The notes under the pieces were generated by a model. That model did no database searches, was not told the DNA's origin, and worked only from the letters and a program-made list of their open reading frames with translations. From NCBI GenBank assembly GCA_961205875.1, contig OY540817.1, forward strand, positions 3,693,001 to 3,757,000: a stretch of DNA of 64,000 nt. The letters are read 5' to 3'. Below are positions 421 through 47,754 of the stretch, one piece after another. The DNA is from Sialis fuliginosa (taxonomy: Eukaryota; Arthropoda; Insecta; Megaloptera; Sialidae). The translations under genes were made by a program, and so were the position numbers. Every line of letters begins with the position of its first letter. Within the stretch, counting starts at the first letter, position 1.

Positions 421-496
421 CAAGATTGATTCAGCGGTTTATTCGTGAAAAGGTAACAAACAAACAGACACATACTTTTGCATTTATAATACTTAC

Positions 497-1403
497 GATG
501 GAGTGCAGTTTCTGCTTGCTTCTGTTGCTTACACAATTGTTGCTGTAAATGTCTATTTTTCATATCTAACTGGCACAATCTGGCGTTCAAGTCTTGTATA
601 GTTCCTAAACTAACACGACAAGTCTGTTTACTCCCCCTCGTCGGAACGTACGACCGCAAGCCTTTCCACTTATAATAATACACCGGCTCTTCTGTTAGTT
701 CGTCTTGTAAATTACCAACTTCCTTTTTTAAATTATCACGTTCTTTCATTAAAAGTAAGCACTCTTGATCTAACTCGGATCTCAAACTGGAATCCAATTC
801 TTCGCCATTTTTTTCATCTATACGTTTCTTCAACTCATTAATTTCTTGGTTCTGTGATTCGATCGTTTGTTCTGAATATATTTTATAACTTTCTAATTCT
901 TCTTCCAACTCCGTAAACTGTTTTTCGTAACTGTTTTCTTCAATAACCGGTAACTTGGATTGGTTAGTAAATTGTTCTTCTAGAACTGTCATTTTTGAAA
1001 GTAGTTCTTGTAATTTCAAATCGCTCTGTTTCTGCTCACTTTCAAATAGCTGCCGTTCTTCCTCTAGTTTCTTTTGCCAGTAATCTTCGCACAGTTCGTA
1101 CTCCTGACGCATTAATTCTAAACTATCTTCTAATTCGTTGCATCTAGCTGTCGCAGTTTTATACTTTTGTATTATTTCGCTATCGACTTTATCAGGCACA
1201 TTTGATAAAGAGTTTTCTTCAACAGATAGGACAGATAGGTCATTGCTATTTGCAATATGTTTGTTTAATTCATCTACTATTTTTAATAATATTGGCTGCG
1301 TAAAACTACCATCGTTTAAACAATCATCGCCTTTGTCATTTATATTTTGTTGTATGTCTACATAGTTCTTGTTTTTCACAAGAAATCCTATCAAATCATT
1401 AAT
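497..1403 (-). CDS. Ninein-like exon 3 (coiled coil)
   Basis: A 907-nt exon from acceptor TTTTAG|ATTAAT to donor CATC|GTAAGT, with phase 0 in and phase 1 out. It encodes about 302 residues of coiled coil. Near its end the helix pattern is broken by an aromatic/basic stretch (YYYKWKGLRSYVPTRGSK), after which coiled coil resumes. The next exon is not in the window. Confidence 0.8.
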
Positions 1404-4400: not shown

Positions 4401-4486
4401 TCTAAAGAACCACACTGCTTTAAATCACATGTGTTAAATACATCAAGTAGTTGTTCTTCATAGGGATCGCATAGAAGATCACTCAT
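497..4486 (-). CDS. Ninein/Bsg25D-like centrosomal protein, 5' part (3 exons)
   Basis: Exons 4486-2689, 1739-1645 and 1403-497 join in frame through GT/AG sites and give at least 933 residues; the gene continues beyond the left edge. Ninein-family proteins anchor microtubule minus ends at centrosomes. Residues 21-32 form a degenerate EF-hand loop (D..CGSLDKNE). Residues 102-116 carry PKFVYGAKKYGRRSR, which matches the conserved block after the first EF-hand in ninein and ninein-like proteins. A second EF-hand-like loop is at about 209-220 (DENGYMNCEE) and a third helical repeat at about 307-350. From about 375 onward the protein is long coiled coil rich in E, K, Q and L, with an aromatic/basic break near YYYKWKGLRSYVP in exon 3. 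The ATG at 4486 was chosen because it starts the EF-hand module at the usual distance. The family is secure from the motif order; ninein versus ninein-like is not distinguished. Confidence 0.85.
1645..1739 (-). CDS. Ninein-like exon 2 (coiled coil)
   Basis: A 95-nt exon between acceptor TTTCAG and donor GTATGT. It restores the frame of exon 1 (G|AA gives Glu) and encodes 31 further codons that read as heptad-like helix (ELSETLKTQQQNDLINQF). It is too short to stand out alone; frame continuity on both sides supports it. Confidence 0.75.
1781..2632. mobile_element. MITE-like element, copy 1, in the ninein intron
   Basis: The ends are inverted repeats built on GGTACCGGCACCAGTCTTGGA and CCAAGACTGGTGC. 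The body matches 44430-44970, so these are two copies of one non-autonomous family. This copy is longer because another element (1947-2261) sits inside it. The superfamily was not determined. Confidence 0.75.
1947..2261. mobile_element. Nested TA-flanked MITE (Tc1/mariner-like)
   Basis: Terminal inverted repeats TTCCTCGACTTACGAC and GTCGTAAGTCGAGGAA are flanked by TA on both sides. The insert is absent from the sister copy at 44430-44970, which shows the empty site. A TA duplication is typical of Tc1/mariner; no transposase remains. Confidence 0.75.
2689..4486 (-). CDS. Ninein-like exon 1: EF-hands and first coiled coil
   Basis: This 1,798-nt exon starts at the ATG and ends at TGATG|GTATTT with phase 1. 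It encodes 599 residues plus one base: EF-hand-like N-terminus, a Ser/Lys/Asp-rich linker, the second and third EF-like repeats, and coiled coil from about residue 375. Confidence 0.85.
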
Positions 4487-6890
4487 TTCAAATTGTCATA
4501 AAAATCTGTAAATAAACAGAACAACTTTATTTGCTTTTATTTATAGAACATATACACTATTAGCAAAATACTTTTACAAGTGAAAACAGTTAAGGAATTT
4601 CTAAAAGTATTTAGGTACAAACATAACGTGTTAATTAATCGATAAAATTATAGCACAATTAATTAACAACAAATTGCATTTATAAAACAGATCAATTTTG
4701 TAATTAGATTCCATTTTCCATTTGAACATGAGCTTTAATGTACTTACCAATAACATTAAATCACAATAATATTAACAAATAATAGGTTTTCAGTGGATCA
4801 CTCTAAATTAACATTCCGAAAATAAACTGAAGAATTGTTTTAATTAAATGACTGCATTTTCCGCACCCTACTTTAATAGATTTTGACATTTGCTTAAATG
4901 CATAGATAATGAACATGTACGTATTACGTGACGTATACACAAACACATGACATTGACATTTTTAAATTGAAATACATACTAATTGGTTAATTGAATTTTT
5001 ATCACAAGAATCCGTAGGTTATGTACAAGTACATACGTAATGTAGTTAATTTTTATCGATTTATATACATACGTGGCATACGTGTTATGTATTTAATTTT
5101 CTATATACTTTTACTACACCACTGAAAATATTTTATTTGGGTAATTTAAATCCAGTGGCGTGTTATATATTTTATATATTGTAGGCAATTTAGGCAACAA
5201 TTAAAATAATAACAAACATAGTATTTATCATATTAAACTAATTTTTATTGGAATAAACATAATAAAAATAAATACACATAATTGATATAAAAATTTTAAT
5301 TAAACAATTACCACATTAATATTATAAATAAATGTTGTGCTTCTATTTCATTAAAAAGTGTATTTTTATTTGTATGAAATGTAATTGTTTGGTAAACAAT
5401 ATAAATTAAATATAGACTATAATATGTACAACTTATGAAAATATTCTTATATACTCATTATGGTGAGTCGAAAATAAGATATAAAAATCATCAATACAAA
5501 CATAACGCATGTTTAGAACGGGCTTGTCACTAGAGTAGAATGTGCTGCATCTATTGTAACATGTAGGAATTTTTATTTCACAATTATTTAATAAAAACAG
5601 TTAGTTGCAGTGGCGATTGAATCTCCATTTTTATACTATATTAACCCTCTTTCGCTCCAATAGATTGTCCTACCCAAGGACAGTTAAAGTGTACATAATT
5701 ATTAAAGCATCAACTCTATTCTGAATAACTATATATGTACATGTATGTACAGTTGTGATATCGGGACACCTATATTCTCCGTATTAACCTGTATCTGTTG
5801 TTTGTATTAATGAGTTACCCATTTATTTTCCAATTTTTAATCAACCCTATAAGACATTTACTTATATAATTAAATCTAAAAATTTGATTATGGAATTGCG
5901 CTAACTACAGTTAAATAATTTTAATATATCTGACTAGAGGATGTCAAAAAACTAGTTGATTAATTGCACGTTTATGTTTTCATTTTTAAAATAAAAATAT
6001 CTAAAACCCATAGACATCGAGGATGGACAGTGCATTCTGTATTAACTCAATGGTGTAACATCTGTTCAAAAAAGGAGAGAGAGATGCAGTGTAGTTTGGA
6101 ACATAGACATAGAGTTACACAGTTATTCCAAATCTGTTTCTATCTCTTTCTTTTGACACGGTTTTGTGGGTTCTGTGTTCGAGTCAGATGCCTGGTCCAT
6201 TTCTCTATGTCTATGCTAAAACCTATATTACATTGGTCAATTTAAAATTAGTGACCTTGAAACGTTTAATGATTGCCAATTACTTTATTTATTTGAATCA
6301 TTTTATGTTAATTATTAATTATAATTAATTTCTCTAGATTGGTATTGCAGATTATGTTAGAGAAATTGTTGAAAAAATTGACAAGTGTAAAACGTTTCAA
6401 TGTAAACACACTTTACACAAAAAGTACCTGTCAATAAACATTATAATTTTATCTGCTATAACCTTACAAATAATGAAAATATAAAAATGCATTTATTATT
6501 CGAATTGTTAACAAAGCTGCAAACTGAACCCTTTTGATTTTGGGAAAAATAAATTTAACCAACTTTCAATTAAGATTTCGGTACAAATTTAGTTATTATT
6601 AAGAATAATGATGAAACAATGTTTTTTAAATTTTAATTGATATAATACTGGGTTCATATTGGTGATGATTGATAACCTAACTTTAACCTCCAGTTTCACC
6701 AAATTCTGTTATTTTTAACAGCCATGTAAATCTCTAAATGGACCAATCAGAGCCCAGAATTTACTATTTAACCAAGCTGGCAACACAAACATAAATTCTA
6801 GTGAATTTGGGTATATAGGTGAAGTTAAAAATAAAAACTTGAGTTAATGAAGTTAGGTCAGCAATAACTACTTATTTTGTAAAATTTAAT
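4487..6890. other. Intergenic, AT-rich, no gene recognised
   Basis: This lies between the ninein-like start (4486) and the 3' end of the MTMR gene (7328), both on the minus strand, so it should hold the ninein-like promoter and 5' leader. No conserved core promoter was identified. An imperfect inverted repeat built on CATAGACAT lies at about 6006-6226 and may be an old MITE. Confidence 0.5.
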
Positions 6891-16400: not shown

Positions 16401-19400
16401 ATGGTACTTGTGTGGTAGCCCGAACGACAATTGAAGTGGGAAATAAGATCATGTTAACGCGCGTATTTTAACATGTACTGAACCGTAAAAACCGATATGT
16501 TTATTTAGGTTATGTTCCGGTTTTCGTTCCGGCAAAAAATAACGTTTTTCCGGTTTTCGGTTCAGTTCCGGTTCGAAGCCCTGATAATTCCGTAGTCCAC
16601 GTGAGCTAGTGAAGTATAATTAATACTTACATCATAATTGTCGTTTAGAGGCGTGAGAGTCCAGTGTTCGCCGGGAACTCTCATTCGAAGGTACTCGGCT
16701 TGGAGGTCGTGAAACGCCCACCCGATGGTCCGTGGAGAATATTCTTGTGTCGAGTAATGGAAACAGTACAGGTCCGCGACAGTCGGTGGACGAGACAGTC
16801 GCTGTAGAGCGGCGGCCGCGTCGTGAGCGTCACGTTCCCGCGGAACCACCAGTGTTGCTGATAGGAAATGTTTGCAGCGGACCAGTAGCGGGGAACCGGA
16901 TGTGGTGAGGGGTAACCGGTCCACGCTTGCGATGTGCGTTAGCAGGATCTACATAAAACATTAAGTTAGTATACATTAAGTTAGTATAGTAATCCTTCCA
17001 TTTATGCGGTTCTAAGAGTTTGCAGAAAAGGGTGGAAAGACTTTAAAAACTTGTTATAACCCGAAACCCCTTGCACTGTGATTTGTTGCTACACGTCGTC
17101 GTCCACACGTTGATGTTCGCACGAAATAGTCACGTAGTGAAACGACGGCAAATTAACTTAGGTGATACCGGGGAACTGCAACTTGCAACCCATCGCGGCG
17201 TTACGTAGGTTATACATTATACAGTGTATTCCAAGTTTAAGCCAAAGGAAATTTAACATGGGGACAATTAGAAGTGGTGTAGTAACCTTTGATCGAATTT
17301 AACGATGTGTGATTGGTGCATTTTGAAATGCCGCCACAAAATTTAGTAAAATTGTCATTAGTATTTTGTTTTCAATTTTATATCTGCCAAAAAATATTAT
17401 TAGAATTTTATCTAGGATGCTTAAATTAATGAAATTAAATTTGAAAACAAAATACTGTTGATTAATTTAAAATTTATCAGTTAGTTTCACTGATCTGGTA
17501 TTATTTAACTGGATAGTGGATACCTATGGAATTACTATTAAACCGGATGGTTAAATTTCATACTTTTTCTAACAGTATCGTTTCCATTTGCGCACGCGCG
17601 AGACGCAACACTGAACTAAATTTTGATATAATATAGAGGTACGTGACGTGCTTCAATAGTTTCTTTATTCAATTGTTAATCAGATTTGACAGTTAATATG
17701 CATCTATGGTTGTTTATTTAGTTATGATTTGATAATTAAAATAAATTACAGGTATTCGCGTGTTAAATAAGTGTATTGTAGTTGATATACAATCGAACTT
17801 GTATGTATTTATTTATACAGGGTGGGGCAATAGTGTGTGGAAGTTCGATAGCTCGTAGACTATAACAGATAAAAAATTTTTTCTAATGCAGATGTAAACT
17901 GTGGGTAAATGCGCATACATAGAAATTATTTTCAAATATACAGGGTGTTACAAGAAAGTGTGGCTCGCTTAAGGTATTTTTTTTTAAATGGAATGCCCTG
18001 ATTATTTTTGCATATTTAAAACTTTTCTTGGGATGTTTATTCATATCAAAAATATTAGCCCCATCTGATGTCCGGTTTAGACATATTGTAATCATTTTTG
18101 AATTATTGAGCAAAAAGTACAAAATTCAACAATATTTACTAAAAAAAAATTTTTTTTTTTCAAATAAAATATAACACCATGTATAGGATCTTCATGTTGC
18201 CCATAAAAACAGCATTTTATGTATCTGTCTCAATTTCACACTGCTCATTAATGAATTTATATGATTGTAAATTATTAAAATTATTAAAATAATAAAGCGT
18301 CTGTTTGCTAGCTGAAAAAAATTCAAGCTGTTTTTATGGGCAACATGAACATCCTGTACATAGTGTTTTATTTTATTTGAAAAAAAATTATTTTTTTTTA
18401 ATAAATATTGTTGAATTTTGTACTTTTTGCTCAATAATTCAAAAATGGTTACAAATAACCATAAGGATGAACAAACAAAAAATGTTTGTTATGTAATTCT
18501 ACATAACATCATTAAAAAATATATAGGGTGTTCCATTTGAAATAGTTGAGAAAAATAACTTTGAAGTTCTCAAAATTTGAAAATTAATTTTGAACACCCT
18601 GTACATGGTGGCTCTAAGATATTCAAGCAAAAGTACCCACCAACCTCCTACAATAAAGTCCATATTTAATTTCGTCTTCAAAGCTGCGGCCGCGGAAGTG
18701 GTGAATTTTTAAGTGGAGTAATGTAAAAGTCAATTTTTTTGAAAAATATATTATTACGTCTAAACCGGACATCAGATTAGGCTAATATTTTTGATATGAA
18801 TAAACATCCCAAGAGAAGTTTTAAATATGCAAAAATAATCAGGGCATTCCATTTAAAAAAAATTACCTTAAGCGTGCCACACTTTTTTGTAGCACCCTGT
18901 ATATTTGAAAATAATTTCTATGTATGCGCATTTACCCACAGTTTACATCTGCATTAGAAATTTTATTTTATCTGTTATGGTCTACGAGCTATCGAACTTC
19001 CACACACTATTGCCCCACCCTGTATATTTAACAAATCAATTTGATAAATTTGAATTTCGAACATCCGTTGACGCATGCGCATAATCAGTTTCGGTTGTTA
19101 GGAAATATTCAATTTCAGCCATCATGTCTGACTTATCATCAGTCCAGACATGTCAATGGTTAGTTTCGAGGCGGCATTTCAAAATGCACCAATCACACTT
19201 CGTTAAATTTGACCAAAGGCTACTACAACATTTCTAATTGTCCCCATGTTAAATTTCCTATGGCTTAATCAACTTGGAATACACTGTAGAAGATGTGGTA
19301 ACAGATTATCGAGCACTGTTACCGGACGAGTTCAACAATAGTCACAAAAGCAATTTAATAAATATAATCATTATAACATAAATAGTCATTTTAATTTTTA

Positions 19401-22400
19401 AATAAAAATAAAATAAAATAAAAAGTTATATTTACTATTATACAACCTCACCTCAGTCCCAGTGACCTAATAGAAGGTGAGTAAAACAAGTGGAACTGAA
19501 CTTACAAGGAAATCCTGAAGTCCTCAAATCAAATACAACTTCACACACGGACGACATCAGGGGTTCAATTTCTGAGGTAGAGTTTAGGCCTACCTCCTGA
19601 GTAGGGTTTGCAATCCCGCAATGCGGGATCCCGCACGTTTTGGAGATCTGCGGATCCCGCACTGAAAGTGCGGGATCCGCGCGGAATTTTTTGAACATTG
19701 AATTTGTAGGTCGCATGCGTTTTGAATACTTGTAAAGCGTAAATATGAATAAAAAAAGGTAACAATTTTGAAAAAAATTAAGGTTGAGATGACTGAATAT
19801 GAAACTAGTGAAGTAAATTATATCTCTTGTTAACGATTAGTTAAGTGGTTACACTGAGTGCGACTCAGGCGACGAAAGAAGCTCGAACAGCCCCGATATT
19901 ACAACAAAAAAACATAAAAAATACAAAAATTTAGAAGAAGAATAGCAGATTAAATGAAAGTTAACCACAAAAATTTAATACACAAAATTCGATGTACACG
20001 ATATTTTTTTAACAGTATTGTCCCTAAAATACAACCGTAAATAATGATATTTAGTGGTTTAGTTTTACGTGACATACCGTATATACTAGGGTGTTTTTTA
20101 ATATTTTTTTCGGTCCCGTTAGCCTATGTTTTAGCTTTGGATCAAAAGTTAATTGTCCCAAAATTTCAGACTCATAGATCAAACCTGTGGACGGCGCAAA
20201 CCGAGTCATTTTCCCATTTGATTAACATGGGAAAAATTACTTTTTTACTTATGCGTGAATATCTCGTTGAAAAATTTCTCACAGCAGCATATCATAGAGA
20301 ATTAAATTTCTTACAAAAAAGATCCCAAGTGCTCAAATCATAGATCGAATATTTTTAAAGATATGTTCGTTTAAACATTATCATAAAAAGAAAAATCCAA
20401 TTTTTATGATAATTTTTAAACAAACATTTCTTAAAATTTATTGGATTTATGAATTGAGCACTTAATTCTCTACAAAATATTCCCCTGAGAAATTTTCAAA
20501 AAAAATTGTTTTCAACGAGATATTCACGCGAAAGTAAAAAAGTAATTTTTCCCATGCGTTAATCAAATGGGAAATAGATTCGGTTTGCGCCGTCCACAGG
20601 TTTGATCTATGAGTTTGAAATTTTGGGACAATTGACTTTTGATCCAAATCTAAAACATAGGCCTGCGGGAAACAAGGGCTAATTTATACGCAACGAAGGA
20701 GTTAAAAAATTGAAATGGATAATCGAACAAAACGACAAAAGTAGTTAGAAGCATCTTGTTCTTGTACCTAACATATTAGACAACCTCCTATTTACAGGTG
20801 TATTTTATGAATTTTACATCGGTCTATACGGTACGAGTTACGTTTACGTATCATATGTTACCACTATGAAAATATTTTTCATTAGTTAATTGTCATGTTA
20901 ACTAAATAATAGTAACTTTAAGTATGAATAACAAAATTTTTGGAAAAACTGCGGGATCCCGCGGGATTTGAAGATTTCCCGCAAAAATCCCGCGGGAAAA
21001 AAAAGTCTGCGGGATTGCAAACCCTACTCCTGAGTAACCCAAACAAACTATTACGCGCTGTTTTCATAGAACCAATTAACCGCATAAATGGATGGATAAC
21101 TATACTTCTTAATGTTTATTTCTATATCCAAAGGATGTGAGAACAAGAAAATAATGCATTTTAACCGACGTCAAAAAATAAGATTTTCAATTCGACAATA
21201 CATACAGGGTGGGGCATTTAAAGTGTTACAGTTGATTATCTCAGAACCATCGCATATTTGAAAAAAATGTTTCAACCAAAAAATGTTTGGTTGTAAGGGG
21301 GTAATCGAATAGTAATATTTACTTGCTATTTTAACATGGCCTTCAAGGATATTTGAAGATCAACATCATTTTTTTAAATAGGAACCTATAGTTTTTATTT
21401 AGTAATCTTATTTTACGTGAAAAAAACTTTTTTTTGAACAACCCAAGCTTTCCAAGGTATCTAACAAAATAATTCGAGATTTTGAATTTCAAGAATTTTT
21501 TACTCAGAAACCATAAACTTTAGAAAAAAAGTATAAGATACAAAAAATTTTTATTTTGGTCTAATGAAACTTGGAGAATTATTCTAGATTTTTTTTAACA
21601 TTTCGTACTTTTTTTTGTTTTTGCTAAAATAAAGTAAATAGAAAACAAATTTAAAAGTTTTTAAATTTTTTTAAATAACCTTTTTTCTTAAGTTTGTGGT
21701 TTCTGAGTAAAAAATTCTTGAAAGTTCAAAATCTCGAAATATTTTGTTAGATACCTTGGAAATATTGGGTTGTTCAAAAAAATGTTTTCAATGAAAGATT
21801 CGTGTTTTTTCAAGTACAATAAGATTACTAAATAAAAACTATAGGTTCCTATTTAAAAAAAAATGATGTTGACCTTCAAATAGCCTTGAAGGCCACGTTA
21901 AAATAGCAAATAAATATTACTATTCGATTACCCCCTCACAACCAAACATTTTTTCAAATATTCGATGGTTCTGAGATAATCAACTGTAACACTTTAAATG
22001 CCCCACCCTGTATATATTTGTTTATGTATGTTTGGGCATAACTCCCACAAATATGCACCAATTTGGATGATTTTTGTTTGTTAGAAATAGTTTACGTTTG
22101 ATGTGGTCCCATATTAATTTTATCAGAATTTGACCCTGGAATTTGAAGATACGCCATTCAAAAGGGAAAATTAAAAAAACATTTTAAGAAAAAAAAACCG
22201 ACTTAAAAAAAACTGAAAAGTGCATAAAATACAAAAAAAATTAATTGAAACAGTTTTTTAAGTCGGTGCCAAGCCAATAAAATACTTTTAAGAAAAAATA
22301 AAAATAAAACGACTTTAAAAACTGATAAATTTAATTTTTGTATACATTTTTTTAAGTCGGTTTTATTTTTTTCTTAAAAAGTTTTTTTTACTATTTTTCT

Positions 22401-25400
22401 CGTATTTATTACAAGCAATGGAGCACCTAGAATTTTTTTCGAAGCCCTAGATTCGCTATGGTCGGTTTTGTATCTACAAAAAAAAGGTAAGCTTGAGTTG
22501 AAATAAAGATTACGTATTGCCAAAACCTTTCTGCGCTACGCAATCTTTATTATATTATGCTCCTTGAGTGGTTTTTTCCCCTCATGTTAAATCAACGGAA
22601 TTAACGCCACTATTCGACGCATGTCTGGAATCTCGAAGAGTTCTCCTAACGAATTGTGATTTATATAATGTGTCATGCAGAAAAACCTCACCGCAAATTA
22701 CGTCGTTAGTAAAGGTTGCGTTTAAAATACACAAACGAATTAGCTAATTTAAATAAATTACTTATAATAACATTGATTAATGTAAAAAGTAAACGCTTTC
22801 TACAAGGTGTTGAATCGTTATGGATTTTTGTTTAAATTTTACTGTTGTGATAATAAATTTATAAAATTATTGGTATGTGTCTTTGAACATACGCCATTTT
22901 GTAGTGAAAAAAGGAACTATTCTTATTGGGTCAGCTCTCAGTTATTAACCCTTTCATGCACACATTTTTCTTTGGGTTCAATGGACTTGAAATTTGTCAC
23001 TCGGGGGTTTTTGGGGTCGCTGATGACGAATCTGAGCACAGAATTTCAAAATTCAAAATGGCGGATCCAATATGGCGGACAAAAATACAAAAAGTTGCTC
23101 GAAGAAAGTGAAAGTGGGCACTCGGGGGTTTTTGGGATCGTTGATGGCGAATCTGCGCTCAGAATTTCAAAAGTCAAAATGGCGGATCCAATATGGCGGA
23201 CAAAACTACAAAAAGTTTTATCATTTTTATCCGCCATATTAGATCCGCCATTTTGAATTTTGACTTCAGATTCGTAATCAGCGACCCCAAAAACCCCCGC
23301 ATACTAGTTTTCAGCGTAATCTAATAAATTTTATCTTTTTTGACCGCCATATTGGATCCGCTATTTTGAATTTTGAATTTTTGACTTCAGATTTATAATC
23401 AGCGACCCCAAAAACCTTTATAAAGCTGATTACCGATTTTTTAACTGTAATAGATTTGACACATTTACATATAATCTGCAAAATAGCTACTTTTTTGCTC
23501 TATATTTTTTTATAAAATGCAGTAATTATTTAAAATAAAAAAGCGCATATTACTTTTCTTTTATAACATTTGATGTCCTAGGATACTTACGAAATGAATT
23601 AAGTCAATATAAGTGCATGAAATATATGTTATAATATTAAAAAACTGAATTAGAAAAGGCGTAGCTGTACAGCAACACTATGCAACAAAGGGTTAATTTG
23701 AAAAACGTGTTTAATGGGAAATTGTTTTAAGAATTATACCTATTTTCTTTATAAAAGAAATTAAATACTGTAATAGTTAAACGTACATAATCAGTAATCA
23801 CATAGTAATCACTGATTTAAATGTTTACTAAACATCGGTTAAGTTAGGTTATATGACAATTGACCCGATTGCGATAGTTTAGATTTTTGCCGCTGAAAGC
23901 GTCGCACAGTGTGCGATTTTGAAAATCTAGCGGGACAAAATTATTAAAACAAACAATTCGATTAAATTTCATTATGTATATATTTGTAAATAAAAATAGA
24001 TTATAAAAATATATAATTTACATAATTTCTGTATTTATTTATATCAATTATATTCACTGTCAGTTGTATCATCTGAATCACTAGTATTATGATCACTATC
24101 ATTTTGTTGCTGTCCTTCTGTTATTACACTAATATTTGGTGGCTGTATTAATTTCAAAACAGCCGGATCAATTGGTAATGCTTTTGTCTTCTCGATTTTC
24201 TTCAAAGACGTTATAACAGGGTCGGAGCTTATCAGCAAATTGTGCAGAATGTCCGTATTTGTCAACTTTCTTGACACTTTTCGTGAATATTCGAGCCGGA
24301 ATTTTCTAAATTCTTTATGTCGAGACTCCTGCGCTTCTTCAGACATTTGTCCAATAGGAAGAAGAAAGTTTTGTATTACTTCTGGCCCATGTAGCAATAT
24401 CTTATGAAGAGTAACGGGCATTGGGTACCAGTGGTACAATGATATGTATAAATCTGCGGTTTCGTCACAATATGATTTAAATGTATTTATGTTAATCTCA
24501 TATCCTGATGTCAATGTCCGTAGTATAACGTAAAACCTTTCAATAAGAATTTTATTTACACCTGTTATTTCAGCAGTTATTGTAGGGTTCTTAAAAAATT
24601 TCCTTGCACTATTCCCATCATTGGTGTTTCCACCTCCTTGTTTGGGCGTGTCTAATAATAAGCCTGTTTTTGACCTAAACTGGTCTATTATGTGTTTTTT
24701 TCTGGCCGCAACGCTTTCTTTTTCTTCTGCCGTGCGGCATTGCCATTTCTGCACGTTTAACCGATAGGATATGTGTAAAATACACTCCATTAATCTTATC
24801 TGGGCATGCAGTGTAGATAAGCCCCAAGAAAAGTTCTCAGCATCGCTTTTTCGTTTTCTTATAAGTTCTAAGTTATTCATGTCTTTAGGAGTCGCTTGAC
24901 AAATATAACATTTTTGAGTGGCCTTATTGGATGCCAAAATGTTGCAAACTTTGCCATCGACCATGGTTTCTTCAAATATGTGAGCTACTTCGATCACAGT
25001 ACCGTTAAACTCAACAATTGTCGGTGAAATTGTTGCAATTTGATCACGGACACTTTTAAATTCTTCTAATACTAGCTGCTCAGTCTCCTTTGCAAATATA
25101 AATTTAATAGGCCTGCAATATGACGTCGATGACGGTCGGGGGTTCTGCCATAATATAACCCTGTTATTTATTTCATTGAACCCGAATATTTGTAAAGGCA
25201 CTAATGATGTTGTCAAAACATTTGCGTCTTCAAAATTCTCCGTGTCGGCTTGTTGTTTGTAACGACTTTGTCCACCACTACCATCACACCCCCATTTAAA
25301 AATTATTGTTATGTTTCTTATTTTTAATACTCCATCAACAATAAATCTATCCAAAACTTCAGTTTGAACTAAACTTAGTCTTTTTATAGTCAAGTCAACA

Positions 25401-28400
25401 ATTGACTGTAACTTTACTTCAGCCATTGATTCATTGATTATACAATCTTCATTGGGTGGATAACATAATGTTTTGGCATTTTTTATTTGTTCATAGGCTG
25501 GGTAAATATTAAGCCCTTTTGCTTTTGCTGATTTTCTTATAATATTGTATCTTCGCTGGCTCAATTTCGCTCCATGTATTAAGGCCAATGCTTCTTCAGG
25601 CGAATACTTTGGTATATTTTTTTGTTTATCTGCTTTTTGAACAGCTTTTTTTATTTTGGTCGCTCTTTTCGGACTCGAAACTAATTTCCCGAGCATAGAA
25701 GCAGCATTCCTTTTACCTGACTGCCTTAGCTTTATATTGGTTGCATGAGTCAACTCGGTTAAAGTACTTCCCGTAACTAAAGATTTAACCTTCCTCGATT
25801 TCGATTTTAATCCACTTAAATCGAAGTCTTTTTTTGGTCGACCAGGTTTTCGCACACTTTGTGATCCACTTGTAGTCGGTATATCAATATTTTGTATAGA
25901 TATACTGGTATTCAACCATTCCTCGTGCTTATTTAAAAAGTCTTTCTTACTGCGATGACACGATCGCCACCTTTTATTGAAATTCGTCATAAATGAGTGA
26001 ATGACACGATTCAGTTCTTGAAGCATTGGCTGAGAACAGTGCTGAAGATTGAATTTGGCTCTAACATAATCCAGAATTATATTTTCAGGCTTTGCTTCAG
26101 ACGTTTGAGAGTTATCATCATCATTTTTCAATTTTTCAAATAGTTCTCTTTTTGTCAAAGTTAGTATCGCACCTGTTAAAAAATAAATAGTTTGAAAAAC
26201 TGCAAATATCTGCACGAAAACATTAATCCTACTTCTTCTATATAATATTTTGAATGAAATAAGTACAAAATCAGAGCATACAAAGGCATACAAAATTTTT
26301 GGCAATCAAAGAAAATCAATATTTTAAAAATAAAAACTTACTATTTTCTTATTGAAATTAATCGAAAATTTATACAAAATAATGAACTCAAGCATATTAT
26401 ATCGTATTAATAAATAAACTACATACCTTGTTGGGAAATATCCATTGCACAAAAACTGATCACAAATGTTTATTTTCACAATAACGTCCTTTTCAACCGA
26501 GCGTGTAGATACTACTGACCATACCTTTTGAACAGAACAGGTATAAACCGGTAATTGTAAAGCGTCTGGCTTAAAAAGCCTGGCGCCTATTATTATTATA
26601 CTTGGTAAATGTTTTGTCTAGTTCATTATCTTCGATTCTAAGGTATTATAAGTTAAATTTAAGATAGTTTTTTTTTTATATTTTGTCCTGCTAGATTTGC
26701 AAAATCTTACACTGTGCGTCGCGTCGCTACCATCGACAACACATTTCAATTATAAAACTGTTATGTCCGGTATTATAAAGGAGCTAGCATAATTTGCTAG
26801 CTAGCAAGCACTTTCAAATGAGGTTTCTAACATATCCGACAGTTCTCTTTTAGTTTCATGAAATGTTTGACAAATTTCGCGCACGCGTGGTATATAAACA
26901 CCAACAGTATTAAAACAGTGGCGATATTATGAAAATTATTTTGTACGGTCAAAGTCGTCAACTGTGTTACAATAAGTTGAAGAATCACTGCTCTAAATTT
27001 CATAGCTAATCCATAGATACTATCACAGAATTAATACCCCATTTGAAAGTGCTAGCAAATCTAGCTCCTATATAATACTGGACATTATTGTTCCAAAAGT
27101 TGCAGAAATATATCAAAAATAGGTACGGGAAAATTGTACCCGAGTTCATATTTGTTAAATAAAATAAATAAATTCGTGAAAATGTATCCTTTAAATCAGG
27201 GCTTCGAACCGGAACTGAACCGAAAACCGGAAAAACCGTTATTTTTTGCCGGAACGAAAACCGGAACAGAACCGAAATAAAAATATCAGTTTTTACGGTT
27301 CAGTACATGTCAAAATACGCGCGTTAACATGATCTTATTTCCCACTTCAATTGTCGTTCGGACTATCATACAAGTACCATAAAATATTCTAAATTATGGT
27401 ACAACATTTTTTTTAATACAAATAATTTTTTTTTTAATTAATCACTCGAACCGAAAACACTGCTGTTATTTTTTGCGGAACGAAAACCGGAACCGAACCG
27501 AAATATATTTTTTTGCTCGAACCGAACGAAAACCTAAACGAAAAAAATAACGGTTCGAAGCCCTGCTTTAAATTCCCCAATCGAATTATTGTCATATTAT
27601 TTAATCAAAAATTTAATATAATATATTATCTATAATTATTAAATTCCATGAATTCAAAAATATTTAACTGTTCCGTCGGGATTTGAAAATGAAATCCACA
27701 TCTTTGAGATGAGAGTTTTTATAGAGACGGTTACGGGAAAACGTAACATCCGTTTTAATTAAGTACTACGTGGGTTCACGTAACTTTATTTATATTGGAT
27801 ATCTTCTCTGTTTCGTGATAAGCATACAGTTCACTATAATGGACGTATTTGGGATCAAGAACACAACCAGGAAATAATATTTCTCACAAGATGAACTAAA
27901 TACAGTAGGGTCTCTTTTTACGCGGTAGATACGTTCCACAGAAAACCTTACACCCGGGAAAAAATTTCAGATCTGAAGTGATCTCGGTTGATCTTCATTT
28001 TGGAACAAATCAGATCTTTGTAAATAAATAAACTTTTGTCTACCTTAAATAACAAATACACATATACTACCTATATAGAAACCTTGTTTATAATTTAATC
28101 AATTTAAAAAAAATTGTACAGAAACGTATTGAATGATATTTAAGGCCCGTGTATTAAATTAATAAATAAATTCACAACACACCCCCTGTCACAGATTAAG
28201 GGTTGTAATTGGTCTCATTCGATCCAGCGGGAAAAATACTTCGGGATACTAGGGGTGTGGGGGGCAAAACAAGCCTCTATCTAGCACAGGAGTCGAGATA
28301 TTTACGATTTTCTATAATGAATACCATAAGTAGCGAAACAGAGAAAAATTCACCTAGTATCCCGAAGTATTTTTCCCGCTAGATCGAATGAGACAATTAC

Positions 28401-30565
28401 AACCCTTCATCTGTGACAGGGGGTGTGTTGTGAATTTATTTATTAATTTAATACACGGGCCATAAATATCATTCAATACGTTTCTGTACAATTTTTTTTT
28501 AATTGATTAAATTATAAACAAGGTTGTAGCGACGTTCCTACACTAATATATTAGATTTCCAAAATTTTAATTTAAATATTTCATACACACATTTATTTTT
28601 AAGAAATAATTTTATTGCAGTTTGGCGACAAATTTCTTACAGGATTATAAAACTTTCAAATCTCTTAATTCGTTTTAAACACGTTCGATTTGGAATTCCC
28701 GATAATGCTGGCGGAAAGGTCCAATAAGGCTTAAAGGCTTTAAACATGCTTTAAACATGCCGACCGGGGTTTTTCCAAAACGTTCCGAGTACGTTCTGAA
28801 TTTTCCCCCTCTCTAAATATCTATCGCTATCCTTGTCTAACCGCTCTGAAACGGGATCTTTCATTTTTCGAGACAAGACAGTTCGTTTCAACTCCTGACA
28901 TAGTAAACATCTCGCTAAACACTCGGTTTCAACTCCTGACATAGTAAACATCTCACTACAGTACCTTCGCGCTGAATACACATAATACACTATAAGTAAC
29001 ATACATCATACAACATATACATTTATACAACAATAAATAAATAATTACTAAAAACTTCAAAAGTGTTATTATTCAAAATGTACCTTGCACACAGTCACTA
29101 AAAGGTTACAGGTAGTATATGTGTATTTGTTATTTAAGGTAGACAAAAGTTTATTTATCTACAAAGATCTGATTTGTTCCAAAATGAAGATCAACCGAGA
29201 TCACTTCAGATCTGAAATTTTTTCCCGGGATTGTAAAATTAGGGATACGTTCCATAATGTTCTAAAACCGTGTAAAACCAAAACTGAAAACCGTACAAAA
29301 AAGTTTATAAAAATTCACGAAAATAAGAATGCCTAAAAAGACATAAATAAAATTAGTTCGAAAATCTGAAAGAAATTAATATAAAATTTAAAATAAAATA
29401 AGTTAGTTTTTCAATTTTATTTATTTAATTTAATTTTATATTTTTTTCATCAGAATTATCGTCACTCGTCACTATATCTGAAAATACAATAGACCAAGAG
29501 CCGGCTGCAAAAAAACTAGCCTATCGAGTAACAGGGTAAAAGTTTTTTAAAATATAAGTACCCATAGCGACCATAGAAAAATCATTTTGTGCCTGGGCGG
29601 AACTTGTTAATTTTTCAGGGGGGGGGGCTAAGGAGTTTAAAAAGCATGTTAAAATGTATAACCAAACCAGCGGAAATTGACTTTTTCTTTTTTTTTTTTT
29701 TAAATCAAAAATGGCGCCTGCAGGGGGATTTAAAGCAAATAAAAAAAAGGTATACCAAGGCGTGTGGGGTGTCTAAATGTAGATCTCAATTAGTAGAATA
29801 TGACTATATTTTTTATTTTTTTTTTAACTCAAATTTGGCGCCAGCAGGGGTTCTTCCAACAGTATTTTACTTTGTCCCCAAAAAAATCTGAAAAAAATTT
29901 GGTAACGAGGCTTTGGTGCGACTACCAACGACAAATACTAAAGTCAACAATATCTTTTTAAATTTTAGAATAATAGGGAGTGGCGTCATATAATTTTTTA
30001 TTTTTATTTAATATTATTAAAAAAATAACATGCCTTGGTATAATTTTTTTTTTTATCTAGCTTTAGTTCCTTAAACACCCCCCCCCCCCTAAAAAATTCA
30101 CAAGTTCCGCCCAGGCATAAAATGATTTTTCTCATAGTCGCTACATTTTACCCTAATACTCGATAGGCTAGTTTTTTTTTGCAGCCAGCTCTTGGTCTAA
30201 AACTCGTATAACAAAAAGTTTACATATTTAAATTTCTTTCATTCAATACCCAACTTGCCGAAACGAGGAATCCCTGAATTTGCATGAAAAATCGCACCGC
30301 GAACTTCAAATCCGCGTAAATAGAGACCTTACTACATTACGTTCCCTTTTGGATGGGGGGGGGGGGGATACAATACATCACCATGCATTACGTTAGGTTT
30401 ATGAATTAATATAGGTACGTACAATTGTATAGTTTTTTTTGAACATACCCATGTTTCTTTCTTAGCGTCCGGGTCAACAAAAATCAGGTGAGTGGCAGTG
30501 AGGTACAAAGTTCCTTGGGAAGGGTTTCTGCTGTTGTACCTGTCCAGCATGCGCACATTCTCTAT
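7328..30565 (-). CDS. Mtmr6: Myotubularin-related phosphatase, MTMR6/7/8 type (10 exons, 5' incomplete)
   Basis: Exons 30565-30449, 16948-16631, 13540-13280, 9703-9571, 9512-9280, 8650-8400, 8340-8212, 8144-8018, 7852-7532 and 7471-7328 join in frame to 677 residues ending in TAA. The family removes the 3-phosphate from PI3P and PI(3,5)P2 on endosomal membranes. Visible parts: GRAM-PH (1 to about 115), [15 protein letters not shown] (about 233-248), and catalytic HCSDGWDRT with Cys at about 325. Downstream are [21 protein letters not shown] and TYSLWGY, then a Ser-rich linker and a FYVE-related zinc finger with eight Cys (about 618-666). Collinearity with vertebrate MTMR6 is strong through the phosphatase; the C-terminal zinc finger is a feature of invertebrate members. 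The first exon begins [10 protein letters not shown] at an acceptor, so the start exon (about 8-11 residues) is missing. Intron sizes range from 58 bp to 13.5 kb. Confidence 0.93.
7532..7852 (-). CDS. Mtmr6: MTMR exon: Ser-rich linker and start of FYVE-related finger
   Basis: A 321-nt exon (TTACAG|AAAATC to GAAAG|GTATGT). It encodes a Ser/Leu/Lys-rich, probably flexible linker, then a Trp and the first zinc-ligand pair as ECSC, spaced C-x-C instead of the usual C-x2-C. Confidence 0.88.
8018..8144 (-). CDS. Mtmr6: MTMR exon: post-phosphatase helix
   Basis: A 127-nt exon (TTTTAG|ATTTTG to CTAAG|GTAAGA). It encodes [18 protein letters not shown] and then a helical stretch. The FWR.MY pattern is shared with vertebrate MTMR6. 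Confidence 0.88.
8212..8340 (-). CDS. Mtmr6: MTMR exon: end of phosphatase domain
   Basis: A 129-nt exon between introns of 59 and 67 bp. It encodes [12 protein letters not shown] and NPLYAADD, the conserved SLW segment near the end of the myotubularin phosphatase domain. Confidence 0.9.
8400..8650 (-). CDS. Mtmr6: MTMR exon: C-terminal phosphatase domain
   Basis: A 251-nt exon (TTATAG|GCACTT to TTAAG|GTTAGT), phase 0 in and 2 out. It encodes [33 protein letters not shown], and [16 protein letters not shown]. Confidence 0.92.
8872..9216. mobile_element. MITE in a small MTMR intron
   Basis: The ends are a perfect inverted repeat of about 21 bp (GACTCTGGGGGTCCTCTGTC and its complement), flanked on both sides by TAATA or a close variant. 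It makes up most of the 629-bp intron between the catalytic exon and the next one. Confidence 0.75.
9280..9512 (-). CDS. Mtmr6: MTMR catalytic exon (CSDGWDR)
   Basis: A 233-nt exon after a 58-bp intron. It encodes GSGWLRHIK and then [14 protein letters not shown], the Cys-x5-Arg phosphatase loop with the two Asp residues typical of active myotubularins. The gene therefore looks catalytically competent and not a pseudophosphatase. The donor is GTTAGT. Confidence 0.93.
9571..9703 (-). CDS. Mtmr6: MTMR exon: [11 protein letters not shown] segment
   Basis: A 133-nt exon (TTTACAG|ATAAAT to CGACA|GTAAGT), phase 0 in and 1 out. It encodes [19 protein letters not shown] and [15 protein letters not shown], which are strongly conserved in the MTMR6/7/8 group. 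Confidence 0.92.
10271..10340. repeat. 20-bp tandem repeat, about 3.5 copies
   Basis: Three full units of AAATGACATTTAAAACGTCA with one or two substitutions each, and a partial fourth. The same unit occurs as two copies near 12130-12165 and seven copies, inverted, at 58601-58740. Confidence 0.85.
11359..11505. mobile_element. Short Tigger-like MITE nested in a larger element
   Basis: TA|CAGTGAAACCGCGTTAGTACG at the left and AACGTATTATCAAGGTTCTACTG|TA at the right form imperfect inverted repeats flanked by TA. Length is 147 bp. The sequence resembles Tigger-type terminal repeats. Confidence 0.7.
13280..13540 (-). CDS. Mtmr6: MTMR exon: N-terminal phosphatase domain
   Basis: A 261-nt exon, phase 0 at both ends (ATTGCAG|CTTTGT to CCAAAG|GTAATT). 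It encodes 87 residues including [25 protein letters not shown] and [14 protein letters not shown]. These are classic myotubularin signature segments. Confidence 0.92.
13590..14650. repeat. Intronic repeats, no gene
   Basis: GGTGTAAAATCAAGGTTAGTAAA near 13601 is matched in inverse at about 14080 (TTTACTAACCTTGGTGTAAAAT), giving a loose 0.5-kb inverted repeat. Positions 14400-14640 carry a block containing ACAACCCTT.ATCTGTGACGGG that recurs near 28185-28420. No coding potential was seen. Confidence 0.55.
15199..15391. mobile_element. Palindromic MITE, copy 1
   Basis: The two halves are inverted copies around GCCTTGGCACTTTACAGAAA and GACCTTGCAAATCTATTATA. A second copy is at about 62428-62614. 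Length is about 190 bp with no coding potential. Confidence 0.75.
15538..15786. mobile_element. hAT MITE with perfect 8-bp TSD
   Basis: Terminal repeats TAGGGTGACCAGG and CTGGTCACCCTA are flanked by CTTGTGAC on both sides (15530-15537 and 15787-15794). The 8-bp duplication and TAGGGTGACCA ends are typical of hAT elements. Length is 249 bp, non-coding. Confidence 0.9.
16204..16583. mobile_element. hAT MITE (CAGGGTTTCGAACCG family), copy 1
   Basis: The ends CAGGGTTTCGAACCG and GGTTCGAAGCCCTG are flanked by ATAATTCC at 16196-16203 and 16584-16591. Much of the 380 bp is internally palindromic, with alternating CCGGTTTTCGTTCCGG motifs. Other copies are at 27197 and 55564. It ends 47 bp from the MTMR exon at 16631. 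Confidence 0.92.
16631..16948 (-). CDS. Mtmr6: MTMR exon: rest of GRAM-PH and linker
   Basis: A 318-nt exon, phase 0 at both ends (TATGTAG|ATCCTG to TATGAT|GTAAGT). It encodes 106 residues including [17 protein letters not shown] and VPRERDAHD, then [14 protein letters not shown]. It is much richer in GC than the surrounding intron. Confidence 0.92.
17220..19288. mobile_element. Foldback element with nested foldbacks
   Basis: The outer arms (TACAGTGTATTCCAAGTT.. to ..AACTTGGAATACACTGTA) run inward for over 100 bp, through a block ending TTTGAAATGCCGCC. Inside lies a second inverted repeat (17815-19026, ACAGGGTGGGGCAATAGTG ends) and inside that a third (17938-18903, ACAGGGTG with AAGTGTGGC). 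No coding sequence was seen. It lies in the large MTMR intron. Confidence 0.8.
17815..19026. mobile_element. Foldback element, middle layer
   Basis: The inverted arms start TACAGGGTGGGGCAATAGTG and continue through GTGTGGAAGTTCGATAGCTC almost without mismatch. The arms meet a further nested ACAGGGTG palindrome at 17938-18903. Confidence 0.8.
19602..21026. mobile_element. hAT element with perfect 8-bp TSD
   Basis: The ends TAGGGTTTGCAATCCCGC and GCGGGATTGCAAACCCTA are flanked by CTCCTGAG (19594-19601 and 21027-21034). The subterminal regions are rich in GCGGGATCCCGC palindromes. The 1,425-bp interior has no transposase and is occupied by a foldback at about 20090-20680. Confidence 0.92.
20090..20680. 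repeat. Foldback inside the hAT element
   Basis: Inverted arms share GTTAGCCTATGTTTTAG, AATTGTCCCAAAATTTCA and GTGGACGGCGCAAACCGA. Apparent short reading frames on both strands here are a by-product of the palindrome. Confidence 0.7.
21203..22012. mobile_element. Foldback element (ACAGGGTGGGGCATTTAAAG), copy 1
   Basis: The two arms (TACAGGGTGGGGCATTTAAAG and its inverse) run through ATCATTTTTTTAAATAGGAAC to an AT-rich centre. A diverged second copy is at 50894-51714. The flanks show that it inserted at a TA within an older repeat. Confidence 0.8.
22013..22900. repeat. Old dispersed repeat and AT-rich palindromes
   Basis: Positions 22020-22160 match the repeat at the left edge of the window. 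Positions 22185-22390 hold several inverted copies of AAACCGACTTAAAAAA and TTTTTTAAGTCGGT. No gene was seen. Confidence 0.6.
22950..23430. repeat. AAAATGGCGGATCC repeat cluster
   Basis: Two direct units of about 125 bp (near 22985-23100 and 23105-23215) contain CTCGGGGGTTTTTGGG, GATG.CGAATCTG and AAAATGGCGGATCCAATATG. Two inverted units follow (23225-23300 and 23340-23415). Short open frames here are repeats and not a gene. Confidence 0.75.
23905..23941 (+). repeat. Transib left TIR, 23-RSS-like
   Basis: The heptamer CACAGTG (23905-23911) is identical to the V(D)J recombination-signal consensus. A 23-bp spacer follows (23912-23934), then ACAAAATTA (23935-23943), which matches the first six bases of the RSS nonamer ACAAAAACC. 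Confidence 0.93.
24044..26445 (-). CDS. Transib transposase (RAG1-core-like), 2 exons, intact
   Basis: Exons 26445-26427 (ATGGATATTTCCCAACAAG) and 26172-24044 join across a 254-bp GTATGT..AACAG intron to 715 residues starting MDISQQGAILTL. Transib transposases cut at CACWRTG ends through hairpin intermediates, and vertebrate RAG1 is related to them. Basic KPGRPKK (about 115-121) recalls the GRP core of the RAG1 nonamer-binding region. [11 protein letters not shown] holds the first catalytic Asp (303), MVDGKV the second (412), and the acidic SEEAQE block (617-622) before EFRKFR the catalytic Glu, probably 622. Zinc-site candidates are CYIC (428-431) and the His pair of [10 protein letters not shown] (596 and 601). 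YCRPIKF and DGNSARKFF are also shared with RAG1. AATAAA lies just past the stop, at 24039-24034. A 753-residue unspliced reading from 26305 is possible but lacks family support at its N-terminus. Confidence 0.95.
26680..26716 (-). repeat. Transib right TIR, 23-RSS-like
   Basis: Read inward on the minus strand: CACAGTG (26716-26710), a 23-bp spacer (26709-26687), then ACAAAATAT (26686-26678). The spacer length is the same as at the left end, so both ends are of the 23-bp class. CGTCG at 26717-26721 is the target duplication and is followed directly by a second CGTCG in the host sequence. Confidence 0.93.
26764..27084. mobile_element. TTA-flanked MITE (PIF/Harbinger-like)
   Basis: The inverted ends TGTCCGGTATTATA and TATAATACTGGACA are flanked by TTA on each side. 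The subterminal parts repeat GCTAGC motifs and TTTCAAATG in inverse. A 3-bp TTA duplication suggests PIF/Harbinger. It begins 42 bp after the Transib target duplication. Confidence 0.75.
27197..27565. mobile_element. hAT MITE (CAGGGCTTCGAACCG family), copy 2
   Basis: It has the same ends and body as 16204-16583. It is flanked by CTTTAAAT at 27189-27196 and 27566-27573. Length is 369 bp. Confidence 0.93.
27953..29240. repeat. Nested inverted-repeat element
   Basis: Outer arms of roughly 130 bp share GGGAAAAAATTTCAGATCTG, GATCTTCATTTTGGAACAAA and AAGGTAGACAAAAGTTTATT in inverse. A second, tighter palindrome at about 28090-28530 (CACACCCCCTGTCACAGAT and inverse) lies within the left part. Confidence 0.7.
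29497..30200. repeat. Foldback repeat with G-run and C-run
   Basis: Arms contain ACCAAGAGC.GGCTGCAAAA, CTAGCCTATCGAGTA and AAAATCATTTTGTGCCTGGG in inverse. The inner edges carry a G-run and a C-run. The terminal portions also occur around 59760-59840 and 60950-61030, inside the hAT element at 59268-61471. Confidence 0.7.
30449..30565 (-). CDS. Mtmr6: MTMR exon (first seen): start of GRAM-PH
   Basis: A 117-nt exon, phase 0 at both ends, from acceptor TTTGTAG|ATAGAG to ACATGG|GTATGT. It encodes 39 residues including [15 protein letters not shown], the typical GRAM strand pattern. The true start codon is upstream and was not found. Confidence 0.92.
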
Positions 30566-40238: not shown

Positions 40239-41167
40239 AAAGGTGCGGTTACATCAAGCGCGCCGCGCTGCGCCGAACACGCAAAATGTTTATGCTTGTG
40301 TGATTTGAACGGTAAACCACGTACGAACGTGCACGTTCGTGCGCGTACATTTAGAGGTGCGGGTACATCAAGCGCGCCGCGTTGCGCAGAGCAATTCGGC
40401 ATAGCGCAGCGCGGCGCAAAACAAAAAAATAGTGTTCGTGCAAACCTACCATTGTCAATGGACGTTAGCGTTTTTGTATAGGTTCCATGATTAGTTCGCC
40501 ATGAATTGCGATACAACTGTTAATTAATTAAACATTCTCAAACGCATTAACACCTTGATCTGTACACATCGATTTCTTAGTTTACTTTAGAATGACACCA
40601 GTCATTCATTTTGTCAACTACAATAGTCCAATTCAAAATTTCAGTTAAAAGTTCTTCAACCCGTTTAAACTGAACGCACACGAACGTGCATTTTTCTTTG
40701 ATGTACCGACTCCGAGCGGATCTTAAACGTACGCGCACAAACATGCACAAACATGCGTGTTCGGCGCCGCGCTGCGCCGAACACGCAAAATGTTTATGTT
40801 CAAAACGTGCATGTTCGTGCGCGTACATTTACGATCCGCACGGAGTCAAAGAAAAATGCACGTTCGTGTGCGTTCAGTTTAAACGGGTTGAAGAACTTTT
40901 AACTGAAATTTTGAATTGCAGTATTGTAGTTGTCAAAATGAATGACTGGTGTCATTCTAAAGTATACTAAGAAGTGTACAGATCAAGGTATTAATGTATT
41001 TGATAATGTTTAATTAATTAACAGTTTTATCGCAATTCATGACGAACTAATCATGGAACCTACAACAAAAACACTAATGTAGATTGACAAATCCCCTCTT
41101 ATCCCGTAGTTTTGCACGAACACAATTTTTTTGTTTTGCGCAGCGCGCTTGATGTAACCGCGCCTTT
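40239..41167. mobile_element. TIR element with ATAGTTT duplication
   Basis: The ends AAAGGTGCGGTTACATCAAG and CTTGATGTAACCGCGCCTTT are inverted, and both are flanked by ATAGTTT (40232-40238 and 41168-41174). The interior holds repeated GCGCCGCGCTGCGC and GAACGTGCA motifs and a second pair of inverted arms (about 40575-40720 and 40830-40990, ACGGGTTGAAGAACTTTTAA). Arg/Ala/Cys-rich frames here follow from the GC repeats. The superfamily is uncertain; a 7-8-bp duplication would suit hAT. Confidence 0.8.
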
Positions 41168-46145: not shown

Positions 46146-46161
46146 AGCAATATATTACTTA

Positions 46162-47727
46162 TACAGGGTAGTTCAATAGTGCGTCCGGCTTTCGTAGCGC
46201 ACTTCCCGTAGGAGATAGAAAAAAAAGTTTGGTACATAATATTATTGGTTTGAAAAGATCAACGTCGTAAAATTATTTTCAACAATACAGGCTGTCCCAT
46301 TTTTGCGCTATAACAAAAACAAAGATTTTTTTAAATGGAATACCCTGTAACGTTTTATGTCTTCCGATGTCATTTTTTAACCTCTACATTAACGTCTGTT
46401 CATTTTTTAATTTAGTGACAGTGTTGCCAAATTAGAATTTTTTTTCCGAAAAATAATCCATATTCAGGCTCAACTATAAAAAATCGTAGCGACCTAATTT
46501 TTTTTGAAGTGACGAATTTTTTTAGCAACAATGTTAGCCTAGATAAAGAGTAACATTTTGATAATAAACAATTTTAATTTAGTTCTACAGGGTGTTAATA
46601 AAAAAATGTCAAAGTTTGCAATCTTCAAAATGATAAAACTCATTTTTTTCAAATGTGACTACCCTTTTTTTATTTCACTATTCGATGGTTTTTTTTCTCC
46701 TTTTCAATTTGTATAAGGGATATCTTATGTCTAAACCCCATACTTTCTGAGATATTCAATAATTTTCACAAAAGTAACCATTTCACCACGTTTTTATGCA
46801 CCGAAGTAGGCTGTGATGATGCAAAAGAAATGCCAAAATGTAAGTACTTAAGTATCAATGTAACATTTAATTAAAATTTATAATTAAAACGGATAATATT
46901 TATGTAATTAAATTATTTATTTTATTCAAAAAACTATGATAAGTAACAAAATTGAAAATACACATAAAATATAACAGTACAATAAATGTTCGAAATGTCT
47001 TCCATTTTCATCCAGGCACAAATCAATTCACCGGCATTTGTTTTGTAATTATTTCGCATTTATTTTGCATTTGTTTGGCCTACTTCGGTGCATAAAAACG
47101 TGGTGAAATGGTTACTTTTGTGAAAATTATTGAATATCTCAGAAAGTATGGGGTTTAGACATAAGATATCCCCTATACAAATTGAAAAGAAGAAAAAAAC
47201 CCATCGAATAGTGAAATAAAAAAAGGGTAGTCACATTTGAAAAAAATGAGTTTTATCATTTTGAAGATTGCAAACTTTGACATTTTTTTATTAACACCCT
47301 GTAGAACTAAATTAAAATTGTTTATTATCAAAATGTTACTCTTTATCTAGGCTAACATTGTTGCTAAAAAAATTCGTCACTTCAAAAAAAATTAGGTCGC
47401 TACGATTTTTTATAGTTGAGCCTGAATATGGATTATTTTTCGGAAAAAAAATTCTAATTTGGCAACACTGTCACTAAATTTAAAAATGAACAGACGTTAA
47501 TGTAGAGGTTAAGAAACGACATCGGAAGACATAAAACGTTACAGGGTATTCCATTTAAAAAAATCTTTGTTTTTGTTATAGCGCAAAAATGGGACACCCT
47601 GTATTGTTGAAAATAATTTTACGACGTTGATCTTTTCAAACCAATAATATTATGTACCAAACTTTTTTTTCTATCTCCTACGGGAAGTGCGCTACGAAAG
47701 CCGGACGCACTATTGAACTACCCTGTA
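46162..47727. mobile_element. Near-perfect palindromic element, two 650-bp arms
   Basis: The left arm 46162-46811 and right arm 47078-47727 have the same length and differ at only a few positions by eye. Ends are TACAGGGTAGTTCAATAGTG and its inverse. Each arm contains internal ACAGG.TG motifs (ACAGGCTGTCCCA or ACAGGGTGTCCCA, and CAGGGTGTTAATAAAAAAA). The loop is about 266 bp of AT-rich sequence. No coding potential was seen. Confidence 0.93.
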
Positions 47728-47754
47728 TATTATGTATATTTCATATACATGGAT

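Follow-up and report, generated by a model that had tools for sequence, protein, structure and literature searches.

HzTransib of Helicoverpa zea (structures 6pqn-6pr5) is a 3518-bp transposon with the target-site duplication (TSD) GCTCG and a deduced protein of 489 amino acids (PMC1852546), and it is called functional in a review (PMC8355894). Transib1, of 3030 bp, invaded Drosophila melanogaster from D. simulans between 2013 and 2016 (PMC12230796), and it is a candidate cause of lethal insertions in D. melanogaster (PMC12974806). The related hopper is known from 533 Illumina insertion sites in Drosophila lines (PMC3276498). An autonomous Transib is described as typically having a single copy, or a few at most, in a genome (PMC4411706), though Helicoverpa armigera is listed with 40 Transib sequences, 32 of them full-length, and 188 copies in all (PMC7764229). 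Here we describe a Transib element in a stretch of 64,000 nucleotides from Sialis fuliginosa (GCA_961205875.1, contig OY540817.1, positions 3,693,001 to 3,757,000; hereafter the window, in which positions are counted from the first base). We are confident that this element belongs to the Transib superfamily, that it is autonomous and that it has been active recently.

Ends and transposase of the element

The element spans 23905..26716 (2812 bp), with its transposase on the minus strand. The borders proposed in the initial annotation proved exact to the base, and the same two boundaries recur at 31 places in copies of equal length. The 37-bp terminal inverted repeats (TIRs) reported there, identical at 33 of 37 positions, were confirmed by comparing the outermost 37 bases of both ends (left, 23905..23941, plus strand; right, 26680..26716, minus strand), and the perfect CGTCG duplication does lie directly outside them, at 23900..23904 and 26717..26721. 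A TIR match of 33/37 is not decisive by itself, because random inverted pairs of 37-mers from this palindrome-rich window reach 35/37 (the best of 400,000). What is decisive is the genome-wide excess of the TIR pattern, together with the 31 places that have identical boundaries. The 35-place pattern, with up to three mismatches, matched the genome 73 times, against none for a reversed-pattern control. These matches comprise the 62 ends of the 31 full-length copies, one extra right end beside one of them (L013), four ends of two chimaeric copies, four of two older copies, a solo end on contig C11 and a fragment on C14. At up to three mismatches in 35 places the search revealed no swarm of shortened elements sharing these ends, and more diverged ones would escape it.

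Both TIRs begin with the heptamer CACAGTG, which is followed after a 23-bp spacer by ACAAAATTA at the left end and ACAAAATAT at the right, each extending two bases beyond the TIR, with ACAAAAT in both. Compared with what we take to be the heptamer and nonamer letters of the recombination signal sequence (RSS), both ends agree at six of the nine nonamer letters at spacer 23. Column-pair shuffling gave such agreement in 1.2% of trials at spacer 23 and in 4.5% at any of the spacers 12 and 22-24. The nonamer-like part of this RSS-like organisation is suggestive, not strong.

The initial annotation also reported one uninterrupted spliced transposase, and this stands as a prediction. A 753-codon open frame on the minus strand would give, after removal of a predicted 254-bp intron, a protein of 715 amino acids with no internal stop. 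Predicted exon 1 (26427..26445, minus strand, ATG at 26445) would encode MDISQQ plus one base. The predicted intron (26173..26426, minus strand; GTATGT...AACAG), placed by splice consensus and open frame, has its donor GT at 26426 (CAAG/GTATGT). Exon 2 (24044..26172, minus strand) begins at 26172 (TTTTTTAACAG/GT) and ends with the stop codon at 24046-24044.

Searches against Transib and RAG1, which the annotation had proposed as a check, matched both HzTransib and the Pfam RAG1 family. HzTransib (6pqn) is the best solved relative (E 3.9e-120, 405.7 bits, residues 189-663 of the 708-residue exon-2 product). Vertebrate RAG1 chains come next, with E values of 6e-8 and weaker. Pfam RAG1 matched above its cut-off (E 1.2e-9) and was the sole Pfam family up to E 1. 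D303, D412 and E619 align with the DDE triad positions of HzTransib and RAG1, which we take to be those of the RAG1 catalytic aspartates and glutamate. Likewise aligned with both proteins are the CxxC (C428/C431) and HxxxxH (H596/H601) motifs, which presumably bind zinc. A GRP motif at residue 117, recognised at the level of the motif only, corresponds to the nonamer-binding-like region described as a Transib feature (PMC9435367). The triad, both zinc-site pairs and GRP are also present in two other Transib families of the genome.

Given the RAG1 similarity and the CACAGTG ends, a RAG-like (RAG1L-RAG2L) transposon has to be considered instead of a Transib. However, the element has a single gene: no other frame of at least 110 amino acids lies inside it that could be a second, RAG2-like gene, a search that does not reach genes made up of many small exons. 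HzTransib also scores 405.7 bits, against at most 35 for the RAG1 chains. Absence of the RAG1 N-terminal region and an identity below 22% to RAG1 and RAG1L are given as marks of Transib (PMC7204232). The single-gene anatomy and the ranking of matches refute a RAG-like identity, which we regard as extremely improbable. The sequence features expected of the Transib superfamily are present: a related transposase, the DDE and zinc motifs, GRP, TIRs starting with CAC and organised like an RSS, and a 5-bp GC-rich TSD. Of transposition there are traces, in the near-identical copies and the empty paralogous sites.

Copies, target sites and empty sites

A DNA search of the host assembly (392,097,322 bases in 20 contigs, with the window at C9:3693001-3757000) gave at least 46 matches, at least 31 of them spanning bases 1-2812, on 12 contigs; all copy counts are lower bounds. 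The full-length set examined consists of the window copy and L009-L038, 31 in total. Other copies sharing the TIRs, which the annotation had suggested looking for, are present, and they bear 5-bp CGNCG-like duplications. Neither outcome that the annotation named as a refutation, a lack of any significant match to Transib or RAG1 or an absence of the flanking CGTCG and TIRs from all other copies, came about. A perfect 5-bp TSD flanks 29 of the 31 copies. It takes 13 different forms, the most frequent being CGTCG (seven copies). The consensus is CGNCG, with C in 27 of the 29, G in 25, any base at the third place, C in 23 and G in 27. Viral contigs, searched for the protein (a search that reaches close relatives only) and for the TIR pattern, and phage records held no relative of the element.

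The full-length copies differ from the window copy at 0-13 of 2812 positions. Together they have 28 variant positions and 13 haplotypes, with a mean pairwise difference of 7.7 and a maximum of 14. No difference in 2812 bp separates eight of the copies, the window copy among them, and the encoded protein is the same in nine. Single-copy variants number six in 87,172 bases. If insects acquire about 3e-9 mutations per base in each generation, these variants would correspond, very roughly, to 20,000 generations. Synonymous changes make up 11 of the 24 coding variants, against 24% expected without selection (p 0.028), which is a weak result because the variants share history.

Empty sites with a single target, which the annotation had suggested seeking as polymorphisms, occur as paralogs within this assembly. 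Joined flanks, compared with the window and the fetched loci, gave spanning matches for 8 of the 31 copies (21 hits). The clearest case is the L020 site, which lies in a tandem repeat and has empty neighbours with a single CGTCG, identical over the 39 bases shown. At the L016, L033 and L038 sites at least one paralog each has a single target, more diverged than in the case of L020. The sole paralog of the L028 site (87% over 84 bases) lacks a few junction bases, and the matches for L025, L030 and L036 were discounted for their divergence at the junction. Since there is a single assembly, and some flanks are themselves repeats, the near-identical copies might be thought to stem from misassembly or from segmental duplication of a single locus. 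This is most unlikely: the copies sit at 31 places on 12 contigs with differing 12-bp flanks and paired TSDs, 13 TSD sequences occur among 29 of them, and there are empty paralogous sites.

A complete 715-residue frame is kept in 19 of the 31 copies. Nonsense mutations common to several copies are E254* (9/31) and S507* (3/31). Each stop-bearing group is found at different places with paired TSDs, which implies that copies transposed after the stop mutation arose. The simplest reading of these sequences is that the broken copies may have been mobilised in trans by the transposase of intact ones.

We propose that the 715-residue transposase binds both RSS-like ends and would use DDE chemistry of the RNase H type to cut at the CAC...GTG tips. 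The excised element would then be pasted into a GC-rich CGNCG target, with duplication of five bases. The family has recently multiplied to at least 31 full-length copies, and the 12 that have a broken transposase gene would have been moved by protein from intact copies. The family is perhaps still active today. It is also possible, though rather unlikely, that it is dead but young, that is, that a recent burst has since been silenced or become extinct, a reading that concerns present activity only and otherwise agrees with ours. The common nonsense mutations in 12 of 31 copies would fit with it. However, that nine copies encode the same protein, and eight are identical over 2812 bp, argues for a source that was functional until very recent insertions, and 19 copies are still open.

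Several observations weigh against an autonomous, recently active element. The 12 broken copies mean that the family may already be declining, the intron of the transposase gene is a prediction only, and older copies, about 88-98% identical by piece, show that the family or a close relative was present earlier. In addition, two of the 31 copies, L013 and L028, are without a plain TSD, but both are explainable. At L013:601-3630 (C3:36181835-36184864) a full element directly adjoins a second copy of its last 218 bases, and the composite is bounded by CAACG at both sides; it is probably an insertion into another copy, the outer left part of which was lost later by recombination. L028 (C3:31686685-31689496) is also bordered by CAACG left and right, but at each end two additional bases separate the element from the duplication; they are perhaps donor flank carried along by imprecise excision.

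Altered copies and other Transib families

The initial annotation had set the intact copy against a background in which most Transib copies are decayed. This does not apply to the present family, in which the full-length copies (at least 31) outnumber the altered ones found, namely two chimaeras, four older copies that are fragments or have deletions, and one solo end. L041 (C6, TSD TGCCG) and L042 (C9, TSD CGCCG) have internal deletions and are about 90-96% identical by piece, and L043 (C1) and L044 (C14) are fragments, 88-98% identical by piece.

The chimaeric copies, L039:1001-5183 (C8:22773227-22777409; TSD CGGCG) and L040:1001-5183 (C8:7901802-7905984; TSD TGGCG), are 4183 bp long and have three differences. 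In both, bases 1537-1880 are replaced by 1718 bases of a Mutator-like element, of which fuller examples (about 2775 bp shared, inverted ends) lie at C14:6685458 and C8:7242376. Their variants place them in the lineage of the family that has 292C, 583C, 1026A and 2066T. A nested insertion combined with a deletion explains their structure, and because two sites exist, at least one transposition took place afterwards. The Mutator domain is complete (PF20700, E 1.3e-67, profile positions 3-357 of 357) and is joined in frame to Transib residues about 251-715 in an open frame of 904 amino acids; the Transib protein as far as about residue 139 lies upstream in a frame of its own. An in-frame junction would arise by chance about one time in three, and we make no claim that the fused frame is functional. 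It is conceivable, though we think it a long shot, that a new kind of element is arising here, in which a double-headed transposase of 904 residues from two superfamilies, if made, would be carried on an already mobile element. Neither the present element nor a Mutator-Transib fusion is described among the matches listed in the literature, as judged from titles and the starts of abstracts.

Transposase frames are also open in at least two more Transib families of this genome. A protein search of the genome gave 65 matches. Family B (2875 bp) shows 40-42% identity to the window protein. Four of its copies (L056-L059, on C12, C14, C3 and C1) are near-identical, each with a frame of 680 amino acids uninterrupted by stops, and there is a fifth at 97%. 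TSDs are paired in three of the four (CAGCG, CACCG and CAACG), and L057 has an altered right end and no paired TSD. Family C, 34% identical to the window protein, is known from one locus, L062:1286-6647 (C1:1192858-1198219; 5362 bp), with perfect 39-bp TIRs, the TSD CACCT, a frame of 722 amino acids and, towards one end, a tandem array of about seven 122-bp units. A RAG2-like gene was considered as the source of its length and rejected: the only frame above 132 amino acids is the transposase, and the rest includes the 122-bp repeats. The weaker protein matches, which have stops, point to further, decayed Transibs.

Host locus and relation to other Transib and RAG systems

Two coding exons of an MTMR6-like gene, at about 30446-30565 and 16565-16948 (minus strand), flank the window copy, which has the orientation of that gene. 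The stretch between these exons (16949..30445, minus strand) is approximate, as small exons are possible within it. An intact frame between two host exons could be taken for a host-domesticated Transib gene. The mobile anatomy, with its ends and TSD, and the many recent copies elsewhere speak against this; domestication is refuted by the recent spread, and we give it almost no credence.

Large inverted or palindromic repeats, at 46160-47729, 59822-60953, 40452-41090 and 20122-20662, take up much of the window and are probably other DNA transposons or foldback elements. Frames at 423-4495 (minus strand) weakly match EF-hand and Cep57-type coiled-coil families, with scores close to the Pfam cut-offs or under them, and presumably resemble ninein. 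Scans of the window with Rfam at the gathering threshold and for transfer RNAs gave no matches. Mitochondrial COX1 and COX2, open in the invertebrate mitochondrial code and insect-like in appearance, are on contig C20 of the assembly.

With HzTransib the element shares the RAG1-like transposase core, the TIRs and the 5-bp GC-rich TSD, but it differs in its length (2812 bp), in a protein of 715 amino acids over two predicted exons and in its at least 31 full-length copies. Transib1 likewise shows a recent burst of near-identical canonical copies (PMC12230796), a likeness by description, as the sequences of the two were not compared. As in the present family, hopper and transib2 of D. melanogaster have a 5-bp TSD and many insertions, but their target motif is CCANTGG rather than a CGNCG core (PMC3276498).

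The likeness to vertebrate RAG1 and its RSS consists of the DDE core and zinc-site motifs, GRP, the CACAGTG heptamer and a nonamer-like run 23 bp inside; the differences are the lack of a RAG2-like gene, a symmetric 23/23 spacing and full transposition, which we infer here. Transib TIR spacers are symmetric at 20-22 bp, with some asymmetric at 12/23 (PMC8355894), and the spacing here is close to that symmetric range. Subgroup II Transibs have symmetric and asymmetric TIRs, whereas Subgroup I, in which all are asymmetric, is held to be closer to RAG1-like proteins (PMC9435367). Judged by end symmetry, not phylogeny, the present element would thus belong to Subgroup II. The suggestion in the annotation that the element is a candidate living relative of the V(D)J recombinase ancestor is supported, but given the symmetric TIRs and the lack of a RAG2-like gene, we would rather call it a Transib cousin of RAG.

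The Transib superfamily and active members of it were already known, and the number of intact near-identical copies in S. fuliginosa is high but not without parallel. This is a recently active, perhaps still active family rather than one lucky relic. Its 19 intact near-identical copies, the broken copies apparently moved in trans and the other Transib families with open frames, at least two in number, make a natural test set for RAG-type transposases, covering target choice, tolerance of RSS-like ends and restraint. As CACAGTG is followed by a 23-bp spacer at both ends, tolerance of 12/23 spacing is directly testable.

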